Source: Thermococcus sp. 2319x1 (GTDB lineage: Archaea > Methanobacteriota_B > Thermococci > Thermococcales > Thermococcaceae). From it: a DNA stretch of 64,000 nucleotides. The position numbers were made by a program, and so were the translations under genes. Of the stretch, positions 2,624 through 26,352 are shown in pieces. Where the stretch lies: contig NZ_CP012200.1 of assembly GCF_001484685.1 (NCBI RefSeq), positions 1,668,321-1,732,320 of the forward strand, given 5' to 3'. The first letter of the stretch is position 1; each line of letters opens with the position of its first letter. Under the pieces are notes generated by a model that was not told the origin of the DNA, searched no databases, and saw only the letters and a program-made list of their open reading frames with translations.

Positions 2624-3338
2624 GTTCCAATAAGACTTCAAAAGAATTGAAAGTCTCTCACATATAATGTAACTTCTGACAATGCATTTTCAAGTTCCAA
2701 TAAGACTTCAAAAGAATTGAAAGACGGAGCAGTGCATGTAAAGAACGTGGCCGGGACTGGTTCCAATAAGACTTCAAAAGAATTGAAAGCTTTTGCTCCG
2801 GCAAAAGCTTGTGGGCAGTCAAGTTGGTTCCAATAAGACTTCAAAAGAATTGAAAGAGGACTGCTACTGTCTGTGGGACTTTTAGGTTAAGGGTGTTCCA
2901 ATAAGACTTCAAAAGAATTGAAAGTAGGGCATGTCGAATGTCGTCCCTTACTGCGTAATCTAGTTCCAATAAGACTTCAAAAGAATTGAAAGACTGTCAC
3001 GACTACGGGTATCAACTTTGTTGACATAACGTTCCAATAAGACTTCAAAAGAATTGAAAGGACGGCTTTAGCCTCCCCGCCCAGCACACATATGAGCTCT
3101 AGTTCCAATAAGACTTCAAAAGAATTGAAAGGGCAATGGGTATACTGTCTCAGTTGCGTATATTTCGTGTTCCAATAAGACTTCAAAAGAATTGAAAGTC
3201 CCCGGCTTGCGGATGACAATTCTGTCCGGGTAGACCTCCGTTCCAATAAGACTTCAAAAGAATTGAAAGCCCTGTAGCCTTCCTGTTCACACTATCCCAA
3301 CTCTCAATGTTCCAATAAGACTTCAAAAGAATTGAAAG
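2624..3338 (+). CRISPR. CRISPR array, 11 repeats and 10 spacers
   Basis: Eleven identical 30-base repeats begin GTTCCAATAAGACTTC and end AAAAGAATTGAAAG. They start at 2624, 2694, 2760, 2827, 2895, 2963, 3031, 3102, 3169, 3240 and 3309. Spacers are 36 to 41 bases and all differ. The repeat type is that of Thermococcales arrays. The final repeat is not degenerate. No cas genes lie in the window, so processing must rely on Cas6 and effectors made elsewhere. I cannot assign spacer targets without a search. Confidence 0.99.
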
Positions 3339-18421: not shown

Positions 18422-18561
18422 TGGTGGGGGCGCGGGGATTTGAACCCCGGTCCGCGGGTTTCTCCGGGTCAGAGCTCCAAAGGCTCATCCCCTATCAGCA
18501 AACCCGCTCGTCTTCACACCTCTGGAGCCCGCGATGATGGACCAGGCTACACCACGCCCCC
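18422..18561 (-). tRNA. tRNA-Trp (CCA anticodon) with a 62-base intron carrying C/D boxes
   Basis: Read on the minus strand: acceptor GGGGGCG pairs with CGCCCCC, followed by discriminator A and encoded CCA. Anticodon stem GCGGG/CCCGC encloses CU-CCA-GA. The intron (18460-18521) interrupts between positions 37 and 38, the usual euryarchaeal site in tRNA-Trp. It contains C-like GTGAAGA, D' CTGA, C'-like GGATGAG and D CTGA. The fifth bases before D and D' pair with C34 and C39, so it should guide 2'-O-methylation of these residues, as known for Haloferax pre-tRNA-Trp. Confidence 0.95.
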
Positions 18562-18615: not shown

Positions 18616-19383
18616 TACTGTTAGGATAAGCAGAGGGGGCGTTAGGTTTAAGTTTCTGATACTTCTTCAGAAAAAGGGGGAGAGATGAGAGCTGAAATCA
18701 TCCTATACTGCTTGTTTTCAGCCTTAAAACCTTTTCGCCGGAACAAAATCCCAGCAGAAAAGAAAATCTGGGCAGTAGAATTATTGCAGGGCCTCAGTTA
18801 CCGGCAAGTTGGAAGAATACTGGAAATCAGCCACACAAGAGCCGAAACAGTTCAAAAACTAGCGGAAGCAATTTACAAGCCAAAAATCCTCGCAGTGAGG
18901 AAACAGAGGAATTTTATCGCAGTTGATGAGACTGTAATAAAAATCAATGGACAGAAAAGATTTCTCTGGGCTGCGATTGATGTTGAAAGCAAAGAAATCC
19001 TCGCAGTCTGGATTACAGCCACCAGAAACTGGTGGGTTGCTAGAGATTTTATTCTGGTTGTTTTAAAGTCCTGCGAGGGTCAGCCTGTTTTTCTGATTGA
19101 TAATGCTAGGGTACAAGTCTGCTTTTAAATCCCTTGGGCTGGCTTATGTTCACGTAACTTTCGGGCCAAGGAATAGTATTGAGCGTTGGTTTAGGACTGT
19201 GAAGGAGCGGACAAAGCGTTTCTGGAATAATTTCAGAGCTGAGAACTGGAGGAGGGTTCAGTGGTTTATTTTTCTGTTTGCCTTCTGGTATAATTTTGTC
19301 AGGATTCATTCTCGGTTTAATGCTCCGCCTTGAAACATCGCTGAATGGGTTCAGGAGGTGATACCCAAGTTATCCTAACAGTA
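18616..19383 (+). mobile_element. IS6-like insertion sequence (broken)
   Basis: About 768 bases bounded by a 14-base inverted repeat, TACTGTTAGGATAA at the left and its complement at 19370-19383. It carries a single DDE transposase gene with a frameshift. Size, terminal repeats and the transposase type fit the IS6-related elements common in Pyrococcus and Thermococcus. A second copy of ATACTGTTAG lies just outside the left end at 18605. No clear target duplication could be found, so later rearrangement is likely. Confidence 0.85.
18685..19333 (+). pseudogene. frameshifted IS6-like transposase
   Basis: The N-terminal part (18685-19128) has a helix-turn-helix (LSYRQVGRILEISHTRAETVQ) and the catalytic core VDETVIKINGQKRFLWAAIDVESKEILA and FLIDN. 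The C-terminal part (19097-19333) continues in the next frame with GLAYVHVTFGPRNSIERWFRTVKERTKRF, holding the final Glu. The shift falls near 19108-19114, where two bases appear lost (or one gained) in the stretch that normally reads Asp-x-x-x-Trp-Tyr. The enzyme should be inactive unless frameshifting rescues it. Confidence 0.88.
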
Positions 19384-19394
19384 GAGACTGTCAA

Positions 19395-20012
19395 AATAAG
19401 AATCTTCAAAGCAAAATAGAAAAAGATTCAGACTAAAAGTCTCGGCCACAATCCTGTATTATCTCGGAATCTCCCCAGAAAAATAAGCAGCTTTATGACA
19501 GTATTCCAGATAATGAGTCACAAGGCTATCTTTCGTTTGGATTGTCGTTGACATGGATACTCGAGAAGTCCTACTGTTTACATTTCTGGGAGAGAAACAG
19601 TTTAGACACTTACTTGTTCTTGACTCAAGCTCTCAAGTATTGTGAGGGTGAGCCCGAGTTCGTGGTTGATAAGGGCCCATGGTATCCGTGGGCTTTTCAG
19701 AGGTTGAGGTTTAGACAAGAGGGGTTTGGTGAGCAGAGTGTTGTTGAATCTGTTCTCTCTTTGCTGATATTCACGTGCAATCCACACGAAAACTTGAGGA
19801 CTCGAGCCAAGAACAAGTATAGTGTCTAAACTGCTCTACCTCCGAGAAACGCGGACAGCCAAGACTTTTCGAAAGAGAAGAACCGAGAGATTTTGGAACA
19901 TTTTCCATACAGGTTCTCCTTTGCCTCTGTTTGGAGCTGGCTGGAAAGTTTCTTTACAGTCCCAGATTATTTTGATAATCCCAACAAAGTTAAGCAAAAT
20001 CTTTAAATGCTT
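19395..20012 (+). pseudogene. relic of a second, distinct transposase
   Basis: Degraded coding traces remain. VDMDTREVLL-type and SLDTYLFLTQALKYCEGEPEF lead to VVDKGPWYPWAFQRLRF (about 19650-19710), a mark of IS6-like transposases of another subgroup. Near 19870-20000, frames give RTERFWN and FASVWSWLESFF, the usual C-terminal end. Stops and frame changes interrupt it throughout. Inverted repeats could not be found. It abuts the promoter of the large ATPase gene. Confidence 0.75.
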
Positions 20013-20064
20013 TTCAAGTCCTATAAAATCTGTCTGAATACAAAAGCTATGGAGGAAGGGGGTT
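20013..20064 (+). promoter_or_regulatory. promoter and ribosome site of the large ATPase gene
   Basis: TATA-like CTTTAAATG (near 19999) and CCTATAAAATC (20020-20030) precede the gene. GGAGGAAGGGGG at 20051-20062 is the ribosome site and selects the GTG start at 20065. The promoter lies at the very edge of the transposase relic, so the gene may have kept its own promoter during transfer. Confidence 0.5.
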
Positions 20065-23000
20065 GTGGGAAACATTAACCCCCAAAGCAAATCAATGATG
20101 GAACCAAAGGATGTAATTAGGAAAATTCGAGAGGAACTATTTGGAATTGGTATCGACTCCAGTGGATTACCTGAGAATGTAAAAAATTACATTCGACGCA
20201 ATGATGAGTTTAAAAGGGATGCCGCAAAACTTGCCGAAGATATTCATACTAAAAAGCCCCATTTTATTTTTGAATTGATTCAAAATGCAGAAGACAATGA
20301 ATATGAAAAGGACGTGATTCCAAAAATCAAATTTGTTCTAACCTCAGATTATTTAATAATTCAAAATAATGAGACTGGGTTTAAAGAGGAGAATGTCTGG
20401 GCTTTGTGTAAAATTGGAGGTTCTACAAAAACAAACAAATCTCTTGGGTACATTGGTGAAAAGGGAATAGGATTTAAGTCCGTTTTTATGGTAGCAAACG
20501 AAGTTCAGATATTCTCAAATAGCTTTCAGTTTAGGTTTAAATACGACAAAAAGGATCCGCTAACAATGCTAATTCCAGAGTGGATCGAGCAGGTTCCTGA
20601 TTTTGTTGATCTCACTCAGACAAACATTATATTGGTGCTAAATGACGAATCAAAGGCAGAAGCTCCTAAATATTTAGATGATATTCATCCTAATTTGCTA
20701 TTATTCCTCCGAAAGTTAAGGATAATTGAAATTGAAGACCAGACGAGAGGTATATACAGAAGATTCGAACGTTTTGAAAAAGACAACGTGGTTGAGATTA
20801 AAATAGTGGAAAAGGTAGGCAAATTAAACAAAATCTCCATACTGAGGTGGTTTGTTGTCAAAAAACTTCTAACAGTGCCTCCTGAAATTTCTGAAGACAA
20901 ACGAAAGGGTGTGAAAGAAACAGAAATAATCTTGGCATTCCCATTAAAAGAAGATGGCTCGCCAGATGATTCAAAGGAGCAACATGTTTTTGCCTTTTTA
21001 CCTGTCAGAAAATATGGATTTAAATTCATCATCCAAGCTGATTTTATCCTTTCCATAACTCGGGAAGATATAAAAGAAGATAATATGTGGAATCTCTGGC
21101 TCAGAAATTCCATTATAGATGTTTTTATGGACGCTGTTAGGGAATTTAAGAAAGATGAAAAATTAAAATACAGCTTTTATGAATATCTTCCCCTCAATGA
21201 AGTTAAAGATGAGTTCTTTTTGCCAATAGTGGATGGGATATATAAACGACTTAAAGATGAAGAGTGCGTCTTAACAGAGGCCAACACATGGAAGAAGCCT
21301 TCAGAAGTTTTAATAGGTGATAAAGAAATAAAGAGAATAGTAACCAATGAAGATTTGCAGAAGTTCTTTGGAAGAGAATACGTATCAAACAAAATAAAAG
21401 CAAAAAAGGAGATTTTACGCAGATTAGGAGTTGAAGATTTTTCAATTGACTATCTGATTAGATGTTTAGAAAACACTGAGTGGCTTAAAAAACAGAGCGA
21501 CGAATGGTTTGTCTTTCTTTTTAAGTATTTAAGCAATAAAAATCTCTCTAAGGAGCAATTAGAGAATCTAAGGAGTTTGAACATTATCAGATTGGAGAAC
21601 GGGGGGTTAACTTCCATAAACAAAGGCATCGTGTTCTTCCCGATAGAAAAAGAGATAGAAAAAGAGAAAACTTATGGATTTGAGAGTGAACTTAGGATAA
21701 TTAAGAGGGGTATCATCAATACTATTTTAAAATATAAGGAAGAGAGAGGTAAAATTTTTGAGTTCCTTGAAAAATTGGGAGTTCGGCATGCAACACCCTA
21801 CGAGATTATTGAGAGCCATATCTTACCTGTCTATGAGAACGGTATGTGGAGAGGAAAGGACCCCGACATTCTAACGGGGTATGTAATGTTCATTAAATAC
21901 CACTTAAACGAATACTACGAAGAAAGTGACAGGAGACTAAACGGAAATAGAAAGTGGTTGGAATCAAAGAAAGATCCATTAGAACGGCTTAAAAAGTCGC
22001 TTCTTATCCGCACTAATAGGAACAGTTATGACCATCCAGAAAACATATACCTACCCAAGAGTTACGGGAACGAGAATGACTTGGAGAGGTTATTTGAGGG
22101 TCTTAATGTAAGTTTTGTGCATCCGTGTTATCTTGAACAGGATATTAAGCATATCAATGATGAAATTGCTGAGTTAGAGAATAAACTGAAAGATAAGAGC
22201 AAAACATGGAAGAAAAAGCACAGAAAAGAAGTGAAGAAAATAGAAAAGAGGATTAAAGAGCTGGAAGAGAAAAGAAAGGAGAAAATTAGGGAATGGAAGG
22301 AGTTCTTTTTAAAAATAGGGATTCATGAGGTCCCGAGGGTTGAGGATTACGAAGGAAGTTGTGGATTAGTGGGGAATCCCCATACACGGTGTGCTTTCCA
22401 AATGGAACATGGAATACCAGAAGAGGAAATGGAGTATTCAACTAGAGGGCATACAATTAGAGACTGGATGCTCTCCCCAGAGTTTAGGAGTGTATTGGAA
22501 AAAGAAAATGCAGAAAACATGAAAATTTTATTGGCTATACTGGACAAATACTGGGACAAAGAATATTCAAAATACTTGAATATGAGTTACTACTGGTTCT
22601 ATTATTACGAGCATCATAAGACAGTTCCTTCCTCGTTTATTAGGGAGTTAAAAGAAAGGATTAAGCTTCCTACAATACAAAATACCTTGGCGAGACCCTC
22701 AGAGGTATTCTTGGATAAACCAGAAATTCGGGAACTTTTAGGTGATACTGTTCCATATTTAGCAGTGGAGATTAAAAATGAAGAGCTTATTAAAGCCTTG
22801 GGTATCAACACGCGAGCTAACGTAAGGGGTGTGCTGAATTACTTAAAAGCTCTTGTTGAGCAGGGGGACACGGATAAGGAAAAATTTGAGAAACTGTATG
22901 AGTTCTTGGATAAGCATTTTGAGGAAGATGCAACTAATATTAGGAAGGAGTTTTCTGAAAACCCCCTGATTTTTGTCCCAAATGCAGAGAAAAAGTATTA

Positions 23001-24795
23001 CAGTACTAAGGAAGTTATATGGAGGGACGTAAGCAATATTTTCGGCAAAAATAGAATATATTTGGAGAGATACTATCCCAAGCTCAAAAAGCTCTTTGTT
23101 GAGAAATTGGGCATAAGTGAAAGACCCACTCCTAAAGATTACGCTAATGTTTTGCTCTCTATATCCAGAAAAATTGAACTCTCGGATGAAGATAAAAAGA
23201 CAATAGTAAAGATATATGAAGAATTGAACCGCAACTTGAATCCCGATAAAGTTGAGAACCCCATATCTCAGGAAGATTGGTGGAAGAACTTTATTCAGGA
23301 AGCAATTTTCCTAACGGATAAAGGCGAATTTAGGAGAAATCTTGGGGATATCTTCATAAATGATGATAATGAACTTTATGAACTGTTTAAAGACGAAGAA
23401 AACATACATTTCCTATGGTTGCCTAAGGACTATCACATAGACAAGATCAAATTTTTCATTGGAGCATGTGGTCTTCGCTATATATCTAAAAGCACCAAAG
23501 TTGAACCGCTGCTTGAAGAAGGCAAATATTCAAAAGATTATGAACTCACAGATCGCATTCGGGCTATCATACCCTATGTTTTGCGGTACCTTTATTGGAG
23601 AGAAAATGCAATCTATGAAAAACTCAAAAAAGAGGGAGTATTTGAGAAAATTAGAACGATTAAAGTCTATGCCGTAGAGACTCTAAAAGTTAAATATTCG
23701 ACAGGTATTAGTGGAGGAGAAACGATAGATAAAGTTACCGAGAGAAAGTGTATTTACCATGATGGGAACTTGTATATTGAAAGAAACAATGCCAGCCTTA
23801 ACGATCTTGCAGTAGAATTTTCCAAAGTGTTCGGTGAAGTTAAGGGTCTTGATTCATTCTTGTTGCTTATTATAAATACATCGGAAATATCGGAAATAGA
23901 AGAAATTATAAAGATACAAAAAATAGGGAAATTACCTGAGAATGATGCCGAGTTTCTAAGAAATGTTCTCAACACTGAAAAGATAGAAGAAAAGAAAGAA
24001 GAACTATTATCTGAAAAGAAACCAGAAAAAACGTTTTCTAAAGAAGAGGGTGAAGGTAGCGAAGAAACACCGCCTTCAATATCGACAGAAATTACCTCTC
24101 AACTGCTAACAGAACCAACAGGAGGAGAGAGTGTTATCGAAAGTAATAAAGGTATTCCAGATAAAACAAGAGAGAAAGAATGGACTCCAGAATTTTCTCC
24201 AGAGGAAGTTCCAGTTATGGTAGAAGAATACGATGTCCAAAAACAAAGCCAACTAAAGGAGGAAGGAGAAGAGCATAACAAAAAGTCTTCTATGGAAGAA
24301 ATTCATCTTTTATCACCTCTTGGAACTACTGCTTCACCTGCAGAAACCTTGAGCAGAAAAACAAGAGAGGATATTGGACGATGGGGAGAAGAATATGCTT
24401 TAAGATGCATTAAATATGAATTAATGGAAAAATATCCAGATGCTATTGTGGTAGATACTGAACAAGGCTTTAGATTAGAAAGGGACGGTAATGTAGTTAT
24501 GGAGGTGATATGGGAAAATAAAAAATGCGAAAGCGGCAAGCCTTATGATATTAAAATAATCGAGGAAGAGAGGGAAATTTTTGTCGAGGTGAAAGCTACC
24601 CCCTCAGCCACTAAGGGAACATTCCAGCTATCAGAGAATGAATGGAGTTTCATGAAAGAAAAAGGTGATAGATACTGTATCTATAGGGTATACAGGGCAG
24701 GAAGTGGCAATCCCAAAGTAACTAAGATTCAGAATCCAATAAAGCTTATATATAAAGGAAAAATCAAAGTGAAAAATGCAACTATAGAAATATAG
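20065..24795 (+). CDS. giant HSP90-like (GHKL/sacsin-type) ATPase with C-terminal DUF3883-type nuclease domain
   Basis: A 1576-residue protein. Residues 55-330 form a GHKL ATPase of the sacsin/NOV type: N-box ELIQNAEDNEY (E70, N74), NNETGF (101-106) in place of DxGxG, and GEKGIGFKSVF (131-141). A long helical middle includes a lysine-rich coiled coil near 690-750. A low-complexity Pro/Glu/Ser linker (about 1310-1425) leads to a C-terminal domain (1430-1576) like DUF3883. It has E1442, D1495 and E1508-V-K1510, the D...ExK arrangement of PD-(D/E)xK nucleases. Related ATPase-nuclease proteins occur in prokaryotic defence and restriction loci and plant NO VEIN. AT-rich composition and flanking IS relics indicate acquisition. 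It stands alone with no partner gene. Confidence 0.85.
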   Translation: MGNINPQSKSMMEPKDVIRKIREELFGIGIDSSGLPENVKNYIRRNDEFKRDAAKLAEDIHTKKPHFIFELIQNAEDNEYEKDVIPKIKFVLTSDYLIIQNNETGFKEENVWALCKIGGSTKTNKSLGYIGEKGIGFKSVFMVANEVQIFSNSFQFRFKYDKKDPLTMLIPEWIEQVPDFVDLTQTNIILVLNDESKAEAPKYLDDIHPNLLLFLRKLRIIEIEDQTRGIYRRFERFEKDNVVEIKIVEKVGKLNKISILRWFVVKKLLTVPPEISEDKRKGVKETEIILAFPLKEDGSPDDSKEQHVFAFLPVRKYGFKFIIQADFILSITREDIKEDNMWNLWLRNSIIDVFMDAVREFKKDEKLKYSFYEYLPLNEVKDEFFLPIVDGIYKRLKDEECVLTEANTWKKPSEVLIGDKEIKRIVTNEDLQKFFGREYVSNKIKAKKEILRRLGVEDFSIDYLIRCLENTEWLKKQSDEWFVFLFKYLSNKNLSKEQLENLRSLNIIRLENGGLTSINKGIVFFPIEKEIEKEKTYGFESELRIIKRGIINTILKYKEERGKIFEFLEKLGVRHATPYEIIESHILPVYENGMWRGKDPDILTGYVMFIKYHLNEYYEESDRRLNGNRKWLESKKDPLERLKKSLLIRTNRNSYDHPENIYLPKSYGNENDLERLFEGLNVSFVHPCYLEQDIKHINDEIAELENKLKDKSKTWKKKHRKEVKKIEKRIKELEEKRKEKIREWKEFFLKIGIHEVPRVEDYEGSCGLVGNPHTRCAFQMEHGIPEEEMEYSTRGHTIRDWMLSPEFRSVLEKENAENMKILLAILDKYWDKEYSKYLNMSYYWFYYYEHHKTVPSSFIRELKERIKLPTIQNTLARPSEVFLDKPEIRELLGDTVPYLAVEIKNEELIKALGINTRANVRGVLNYLKALVEQGDTDKEKFEKLYEFLDKHFEEDATNIRKEFSENPLIFVPNAEKKYYSTKEVIWRDVSNIFGKNRIYLERYYPKLKKLFVEKLGISERPTPKDYANVLLSISRKIELSDEDKKTIVKIYEELNRNLNPDKVENPISQEDWWKNFIQEAIFLTDKGEFRRNLGDIFINDDNELYELFKDEENIHFLWLPKDYHIDKIKFFIGACGLRYISKSTKVEPLLEEGKYSKDYELTDRIRAIIPYVLRYLYWRENAIYEKLKKEGVFEKIRTIKVYAVETLKVKYSTGISGGETIDKVTERKCIYHDGNLYIERNNASLNDLAVEFSKVFGEVKGLDSFLLLIINTSEISEIEEIIKIQKIGKLPENDAEFLRNVLNTEKIEEKKEELLSEKKPEKTFSKEEGEGSEETPPSISTEITSQLLTEPTGGESVIESNKGIPDKTREKEWTPEFSPEEVPVMVEEYDVQKQSQLKEEGEEHNKKSSMEEIHLLSPLGTTASPAETLSRKTREDIGRWGEEYALRCIKYELMEKYPDAIVVDTEQGFRLERDGNVVMEVIWENKKCESGKPYDIKIIEEEREIFVEVKATPSATKGTFQLSENEWSFMKEKGDRYCIYRVYRAGSGNPKVTKIQNPIKLIYKGKIKVKNATIEI

Positions 24796-24884: not shown

Positions 24885-25117
24885 AAAAAGTCACGTAATA
24901 TTCAGGCCAAGGGACAGTATTACTAACTCAAAACTATTAAAGAGCAAACAAAACGCTTCTAGAATAACTCCAAGAGTAGCAACTGGCAAAAAGTTCACTA
25001 GTTCTTGTATCTCTCTCCTTTCAGGTATAATTAGGGTTCATTCTCAGTTTGATGGACACTAGGCAATATTACTCAATGGCTCCAAGATGTGACATACCAA
25101 AGTTACCCTAACAGTAG
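24885..25117 (+). mobile_element. 3' remnant of the same IS type as at 18616
   Basis: The sequence follows 19144-19383 closely: CACGTAATATTCAGGCCAAG matches CACGTAACTTTCGGGCCAAG, AACAAAACGCTTCTAGAATAA matches the KERTKRFWNN region, and it ends in TTACCCTAACAGTAGCG, a variant of the right terminal repeat. Many point changes and small deletions mark it as old. It has the same orientation as the left copy, and the left two thirds of this copy are missing. Confidence 0.8.
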
Positions 25118-25757
25118 CGTCAAAGGAACAGTAACGGTAAAAGACCTCATTGGAAGAGAAGTCAAAGTTCTGGCAATGTTGAGCGAATAACGCCAGTGAC
25201 AAAATCGTTGGAGTTGAGGATTTTGAAAAACTTCACAGATACGGCAGAGCATACATTCCAGCACATCCAGAACTTGGAGAACTTCCCAGTATTGGGCCCG
25301 GGGGTCCAGGAAAGCTTCCTAACTTAGAAGCGTTGGTTAATCTAAGGCCAGATGTAATTTTCACGACCTATGTAGATGCTAAGACAGCTCAAGATATCCA
25401 AGAAAAAACGGGAATACCCGTTGTTGTATTAAGCTATGGACAAGTGACAACTGCTCTTTAAATCTTTACAGCTCGCAGGTAAAATCCTTGGAAAAGAAAA
25501 AAGAGCTCAGGAGGTTATCACCTTCATTAAATCTCTCCAAGAGGACTTATTAAAACGTACAGAGCTACGCAACCAGCATAGGAACTGCCCTTGCAGATGC
25601 CTACTTCATCGGAAAGGTCCTTTATCCAGAGAGCTTTAAAGATGTAGACCCCATAAAGACGGCAAACGATATTTATGAATTTTTAGTGGGCAAACCAGTA
25701 TACGAAACACTTGCCGAACAGTTTGGAGGATTCGGAAGAATCAATCTTTCGACTGGA
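25118..25757 (+). pseudogene. iron-siderophore ABC binding protein remnant (FecB/BtuF type)
   Basis: Conserved pieces of a periplasmic-binding-protein type II subunit lie in order but in different frames. They are [86 protein letters not shown] and [24 protein letters not shown]. The intervals between them are shorter than in intact homologues and contain stops near 25190 and 25460. Several internal deletions are the simplest account. The gene cannot give a working protein. Confidence 0.82.
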
Positions 25758-25850
25758 AGTCTTGTCCAGTACTTTGCGGACGAACTCCAACTGGCGGCGA
25801 TGGTCTACTGGGGCTTTGGGGATTTAGGAGGGGCAACATGGAGAGAGAAC
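25758..25850 (+). pseudogene. fragment of an iron ABC permease (FecC type)
   Basis: SLVQYFADELQLAAMVYWGFGDLGGATW resembles the cytoplasmic loop region of FecCD-family permeases (ADxxxLxAxxxWxxGSL-like). It is fused directly to the end of the binding-protein remnant; most of the roughly 330-residue permease is gone. Confidence 0.6.
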
Positions 25851-25868
25851 ACAATACTCATGATTCTT

Positions 25869-26352
25869 AGGGTATGTTCCACAGAGCGTAAATCCCGGAT
25901 TTATGAGGGTTTTTGATATCGTTCTTTTGGGCAGGAGGCTATATATGGGCTTTAATCCTTCAGAAAAGGACATTAGAATCGTTAATGAAATCCTCAAGAA
26001 GAGTGGAGGAGAGCTGCAAAAGGTAAGCATCGCCAGAGCCCTAGCACAAGAACCAGAGATACTACTCATGGACGAACCAACAAACAATCTTGACCCAAAG
26101 AACCAGCTTAAAGTTATGGAGATAGCCAAAGACTTCGCAAAAGTGGGCAAAGTCCCGATAGCGGTTATGCACGATGTTAACTTAGCTCTACGTTTTGCTG
26201 ATAGGTTTATTTTCATGAAAAATGGTAGAATAATAGCGGATGGAGGGAGGGAAATTCTAAGGTCTGAAATTTTTGAGAAAGTTTATGGAATCAGAGGGCT
26301 TGTCGGCGAAGTCTCTGGAGTCCCAGTGTTCATAGCTAGCTCAGAGAGTTGA
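25869..26352 (+). pseudogene. iron ABC transporter ATPase remnant (FecE type)
   Basis: The fragment opens with LGYVPQSVNPGFMRVFDIVLLGR, the Q-loop region, so the Walker A half is absent. The segment between VNEILKK and SGGELQKVSIARALAQ is also shortened. Walker B (EILLMDEPTNNLDP), the D-loop and AVMHDVNLALRFADR (H-loop) are intact to the natural C-terminus. Without Walker A it cannot bind ATP normally. It is the tail of a decayed iron-uptake operon and overlaps the convergent VIT-type gene by 12 bases. Confidence 0.85.

Follow-up and report, generated by a model that had tools for sequence, protein, structure and literature searches.

A Tiamat (TmtA)-like candidate defence gene between IS6-type remnants in Thermococcus sp. 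2319x1

The tmtA-like gene and its surroundings

We analysed a stretch of 64,000 nucleotides of Thermococcus sp. 2319x1 (contig NZ_CP012200.1; hereafter the window), in which one intact open reading frame of 4,731 bp and 1,576 codons, free of internal stops, occupies positions 20065–24795 of the + strand. An earlier note on this DNA had read the frame as a GHKL ATPase joined to a DUF3883 domain, and profile searches identify both ends: NCBIfam NF047352 (sacsin ATP-binding-like domain) matches residues 66–149 (E=5.5e-20), and Pfam NOV_C (PF13020, DUF3883) matches residues 1477–1554 (E=8.7e-20). The longest start is a GTG (20065), and the homologues L056, L058 and L059 align with their starts level with Met11 of the window protein. 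The gene and its flanks are arranged as follows:

18422–18561, − strand: tRNA-Trp(CCA) with a C/D-box-like intron, from an intron-allowing scan; conserved edge of the insertion site
18616–19383, + strand: IS6/IS240-type insertion sequence with a broken transposase frame (DDE_Tnp_IS240; terminal inverted repeats 14/14 bp)
20065–24795, + strand: tmtA-like gene, a single-gene Tiamat homologue of 1,576 aa (PADLOC TmtA, Pfam and NCBIfam matches)
24891–25116, + strand: decayed direct copy of the IS 3′ end on the other flank of the insert (68% identity)
25119–26352, + strand: what is left of a metal/siderophore ABC-transporter operon broken up by the insert (5′ end cut, internal deletions)

Nearly the whole protein and the whole profile are covered by the PADLOC TmtA model PDLC03966, which gives the fullest match (residues 12–1565 of 1576 against profile positions 1–1635 of 1655, E=9.3e-159), and model PDLC03972 gives the top score (1139.5 bits). 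The defence-model search of the window protein returned no comparable match to any family besides TmtA. TmtA is PADLOC's name for the Tiamat protein, and the Tiamat reference proteins are bacterial. The window copy shares with Tiamat its one-gene make-up, the full-length profile match and the common scaffold; it differs in being archaeal, in lying between IS6 relics and in being a candidate by sequence. No co-directional partner gene adjoins it in the window, in G027 or in G047, in keeping with single-gene encoding, and in some distant relatives a UvrD/NERD helicase gene overlaps or adjoins the tmtA-like gene. According to papers that cite it, Tiamat was described by Millman et al. 2022 (PMC13321033, PMC12926258). 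One of these papers gives its occurrence as 20 of 382 complete archaeal genomes (PMC13321033), and its mechanism has been called unknown or poorly understood (PMC12926258, PMC10740426). The suggestion in the earlier note of a new single-gene system thus falls, because Tiamat is already published and reported in archaea (PMC13321033) and the TmtA match runs end to end; what that note said about the domains and about a defence role is supported. Judged from its sequence, the window gene is a clear Tiamat relative and a further example of an already described one-gene anti-virus system. It is ordinary as a recognisable Tiamat, and useful since comparison gives a specific, testable mechanism.

The gene lies in an AT-rich island (35.7% GC against 44–47% in neighbouring genes; GC3 0.35 against 0.44–0.53), beside a tRNA and with IS relics on both sides, as had been noted before. 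The IS6/IS240-type element has 28 matches in the genome. The tRNA-Trp, 1.5 kb from the tmtA-like gene, appears once introns are permitted; its absence from default scans was an artefact of disallowing them. Homology with relatives stops on the left at ~18603, just past the tRNA-Trp, and restarts on the right inside the ABC-transporter operon, which is intact in G078, at least partly present in G074, G077 and G079, and absent from G075. Because homology breaks and resumes at these points, the tmtA-like segment came in as an insert, and genes close to it have decayed while its own frame has remained open. Insertion of the integrase type at the tRNA 3′ end was rejected, since the insert lies on the tRNA 5′ side, beside IS6 ends. 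By eye, neither end of the insert shows a matching 8-bp target duplication, so that single-step transposition is not proven. A further transposase-like remnant, without a Pfam match, was read by eye at ~19400–20040, and the intron region of the tRNA-Trp (18467–18521, − strand) gives box C/D guide RNA scores (sR3, sR40) below the gathering scores.

This setting raises the question of whether the gene is a recent passenger of an IS6 pseudo-composite element that does not function as defence in its host, as the flanking IS6 copies, the decaying neighbours and a GC content unlike that of the genome might indicate. We regard this as improbable. The 4.7-kb frame is intact amid the cut and deleted operon, which the earlier note had taken to imply selection, and comparison with a 74%-identical homologue gives a dN/dS of 0.15, a value that measures the family and not this host alone. 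The tmtA-like family is under purifying selection.

Sacsin-type ATPase end and helical middle

The protein is divided into the following segments ahead of its C-terminal domain:

20200–20919, + strand: GHKL (sacsin/Hsp90-type) ATP-binding domain, residues ~46–285 (motifs in 68/68; modelled fold; sacsin profile match)
20920–21444, + strand: Hsp90-middle/transducer-like domain, residues ~286–460, with invariant Arg333 and Asn343 (model alignments; 68/68 conservation)
21445–23964, + strand: long, mostly helical middle, residues ~461–1300, with a coiled-coil at ~690–750; putative sensor or clamp (model of residues 1–1195, pLDDT 82)
23965–24354, + strand: poorly ordered, fast-evolving linker, residues 1301–1430 (dN/dS 0.4–0.6)

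The ATPase end was assigned to the sacsin/HSP90 type in the earlier note on the strength of E70 and N74, and conservation, profiles and modelled fold all agree. E70, N74, D77, G131, G134, G136 and K138 are identical in 68/68 aligned ATPase domains, so that GHKL motif I (E-x3-N) and motif III (G-x2-G-x-G) are intact throughout. The ATPase end also gives a profile match to sacsin (E=4e-14), and Pfam SACS (PF25794) matches just below its cut-off (E=3.5e-7). Motif II (D-x-G-x-G) is absent and is replaced by N101-N-E-T-G-F, position 101 being Asn in 40 and His in 27 of the 68 domains. In sacsin, Asn160 replaces Asp79 of Hsp90, a change that can accommodate ATP according to modelling, and ATP hydrolysis by sacsin-type domains that lack the motif-II Asp is debated (PMC9880540). 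Because the same change is described in sacsin (PMC9880540), the exchange of Asp for Asn in motif II is usual for the sacsin subtype.

In the predicted structure of residues 1–1195 (mean pLDDT 82), a Bergerat fold is followed by a middle/transducer domain. Residues ~33–460 of the model align to Hsp90 N+M (Z 15.6; 278 aligned, 5.0 Å), to sacsin SR1 (Z 14.5; 177, 4.8 Å), to GyrB (43K; Z 13.9; 289, 7.1 Å) and to topo VI-B (Z 13.4). Arg333 and Asn343 are each present in 68/68 ATPase-bearing homologues, and the model places Arg333 between strand 322–324 and the long helix 341–363. Arg474 of sacsin and Arg380 of Hsp90 have been described at such a loop position between a strand and a long helix (PMC9880540). 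The likeness to sacsin SR1 and Hsp90 thus extends from the ATP-binding fold to a conserved arginine in the corresponding loop of the next domain, and with sacsin the window protein also shares the Asn where the adenine-binding Asp would stand and the Phe after it. Unlike the window protein, sacsin is a chaperone-like protein of eukaryotes; it contains DnaJ and HEPN domains but no nuclease. From the model, we infer that the ATPase site would be split in the manner of Hsp90, with Arg333 contributed by the following domain.

The part between the two ends had been described as long, helical and coiled-coil. It is mostly helical, but it includes mixed α/β parts, and the only strong coiled-coil is the one at ~690–750. 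Residue ~1298 is the conserved end point of effector swaps among relatives. Within the disordered linker, residues ~1371–1390 (24175–24234) form a conserved and confidently modelled motif, WTPEFSPEEVPVM, which is possibly a docking segment for the nuclease.

C-terminal domain and exchange of domains among relatives

The C-terminal end comprises:

24355–24777, + strand: NOV_C/DUF3883 PD-(D/E)xK nuclease domain, residues 1431–1571 (Pfam, conservation, model, fold search)
24547–24549, 24586–24588 and 24592–24594, + strand: catalytic codons of D1495, E1508 and K1510; E1442 lies in the first helix of the domain

The earlier note had called a nuclease from D1495 and E1508-V-K1510. All 35 NOV_C-bearing homologues retain the Acid-x(n)-E/D-x-K motif (D1495 35/35, E/D1508 35/35, K1510 35/35), and G1438 and E1442 are invariant in a 16-row alignment. 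Residues 1431–1571 are modelled mostly at pLDDT 85–97, with the α-β-β-β-α-β core of the PD-(D/E)xK fold present in the modelled secondary structure. In the VIA-align search, the closest matches include the SPARDA nuclease subunit (Z 8.5; 109 aligned, 3.7 Å) and Hjc (Z 7.2; 98, 3.1 Å), followed by I-Ssp6803I, RecU, HinP1I and EcoRV, and nearly every row has a PD-(D/E)xK fold. Foldseek returned similar families with weak E-values (best 0.05). A search of solved structures with the C-terminal sequence gave chance matches only, so that the fold search was required. The reading of the modelled C-terminus as a PD-(D/E)xK nuclease is well supported because the fold list is uniform and the motif is kept, where a Z of ~8 by itself would be moderate. 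In 2013, DUF3883 had already been described as a new REase domain (PMC3710099). The same C-terminal Pfam family occurs in NO VEIN of plants. That protein is a developmental one, linked to the window protein by family name only.

The fold list also bears on the substrate. With the Holliday-junction resolvases Hjc and RecU among the nearest folds, and tRNA splicing endonucleases among the matches, the NOV_C domain might act on RNA, or its cutting might be limited to DNA that is modified or has a structure, for example a junction. This seems rather unlikely to us: the domain keeps a D-E-x-K motif of the DNA type, and the conserved metal triad found here is missing from the branch of the splicing endonucleases.

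Relatives of the window protein carry other C-termini on a common ATPase-plus-middle scaffold. The Methanophagales protein L058 is 47% identical over residues 11–1298 and then continues into an HNH domain, as does L065; L132 carries NucS_C, and L107 SLFN_AlbA_2 and a caspase. All six proteins tested, one or two per effector type, score as TmtA. Bacterial and archaeal relatives are interleaved on the ATPase tree, on which, by a quick method, the effector type must have changed at least 10 times. Because one scaffold bears several C-termini and the type has changed this often on the tree, the C-terminus is an exchangeable effector, whether NOV_C, HNH, NucS-like or caspase-like. Caspase-like C-termini were seen in L107, L109, L115, L119, L121, L123 and L124 (Bacillota, Bacteroidota, Aliivibrio), with SLFN_AlbA_2 ahead of the caspase in L107.

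The opposite end has also been exchanged in one homologue:

L041 6894–11462 (G047): TmtA homologue with a swapped ATPase domain; residues 1–285 diverged, the rest ~70% identical to the window protein

Compared with the window protein, residues 1–285 of the G047 copy have a dN of 0.52 and saturated dS, and the remainder a dN of about 0.11–0.26, with a sharp step at ~286. Positive selection alone was rejected as the cause of this diverged N-terminus, since synonymous sites are saturated there too. The comparison indicates that the ATPase domain was replaced as a block by recombination at residue ~285, and it points to the ATPase as a replaceable input or motor. This natural replacement would separate recognition by the ATPase from the role of the rest of the protein. 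A broader reading, which we hold only tentatively, makes TmtA an ATP-driven platform for sensing in general, with both of its ends exchanged in evolution; the cue of infection would then be read by the Hsp90-like end or by the middle, and immunity would be triggered by a conformational cycle of the chaperone type.

Distribution and proposed working

A tmtA-like gene is present in 3 of the 94 genomes of the order, two of the three being in another genus. A scan of genome contigs with the single protein as query found no relatives; they were recovered once an ATPase-domain alignment served as query. The earlier note had proposed a defence gene, and on this point the neighbourhoods are divided. 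Some relatives lie beside defence systems: L063 is flanked by a type III R-M system and a JetC-like gene, L065 by BREX PglZ/BrxL, and Qat adjoins the Sulfuricurvum relative. A NERD-UvrD helicase gene follows L066, with a matching frame arrangement in L068 and L074. The two other copies of the order, however, stand alone among ordinary genes, and no defence island was found in the window, where the flanking large ORFs scanned in 1–14 kb are housekeeping or surface genes. The neighbourhoods favour a defence role as supporting evidence only. The defence assignment holds through the TmtA match, the nuclease fold and motif, the patchy occurrence and the defence neighbours of relatives, although a defence-island context is not universal. 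A CRISPR array of 11 CRISPR-DR6 repeats lies at 2624–3338 (+ strand), 17 kb from the tmtA-like gene; none of the eight large neighbouring ORFs scanned is a cas gene.

The ATPase and the middle-like domain would also suit a sacsin-like chaperone or protein-quality factor whose C-terminal domain binds nucleic acid without cutting. We consider this very improbable, given the catalytic triad in 35/35, a C-terminus that can be replaced by unrelated nucleases or a caspase, the restriction to 3/94 genomes and the defence neighbourhoods of relatives.

We think it likely that the gene encodes a Tiamat (TmtA) single-gene antiviral protein, horizontally acquired between IS6-type copies, that acts as an ATP-gated clamp licensing a DNase on infection. 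The N-terminal Hsp90-like ATPase would dimerise and close when ATP binds; N101 would touch the adenine, E70 would serve as the general base, and the middle-like domain would contribute Arg333. A clamp that senses an infection cue would be built by the long helical middle. The closed state would then free or dimerise the C-terminal PD-(D/E)xK domain on its flexible linker, and the released nuclease would cut DNA, most likely that of the invader. The estimates given for this reading and its rivals are not mutually exclusive, and the RNA or junction-substrate reading overlaps with the others.

The closest tested analogue is VcSduA, a GHKL-type Shedu (type I-D, paraMORC3), which likewise combines an N-terminal GHKL ATPase and a C-terminal PD-(D/E)xK nuclease in a single gene, and in which E27A or K557A each abolishes protection (PMC12137116). 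VcSduA needs both active sites, so by analogy the ATPase should gate the nuclease in TmtA, and the two proteins probably share the same working principle. They differ in that VcSduA has a DUF4263 nuclease and a paraMORC3-type GHKL domain, against NOV_C and a sacsin-type domain here. Membership of Shedu was rejected, as the window protein has NOV_C and no Pfam match to DUF4263.

The main rival to a clamp that licenses cutting of invader DNA is abortive infection, in which the same protein and trigger would direct the nuclease against the cell's own DNA, or indiscriminately, and the cell would die before virus release. It ranks first among the rivals on account of the caspase effectors in the family: relatives bear a caspase and SLFN_AlbA_2 in the effector position, a type linked to cell suicide, which suggests that some members kill the cell instead of cutting invader DNA. 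Moreover, no partner for sequence recognition is visible alongside NOV_C, and no methylase adjoins the gene. For the HNH or NucS nucleases of other relatives, however, no role in suicide is known, and VcSduA gives protection at every MOI, which is taken to mean that phage is restricted directly (PMC12137116). Overall, we judge abortive infection unlikely, if still the strongest of the rivals.

For the ATP-gated clamp, the comparison yields a testable model that combines split Hsp90-like catalysis through Arg333 with a swappable C-terminal effector, and the protein, coming from a thermophile, may prove stable enough for structural studies. Beyond the one-gene proteins, L048, L054 and L042 (Methanomethylovorans, Rhizobium and G107) are related GHKL-HNH proteins encoded directly 3′ of a helicase gene, and these pairs look like a two-gene variant.
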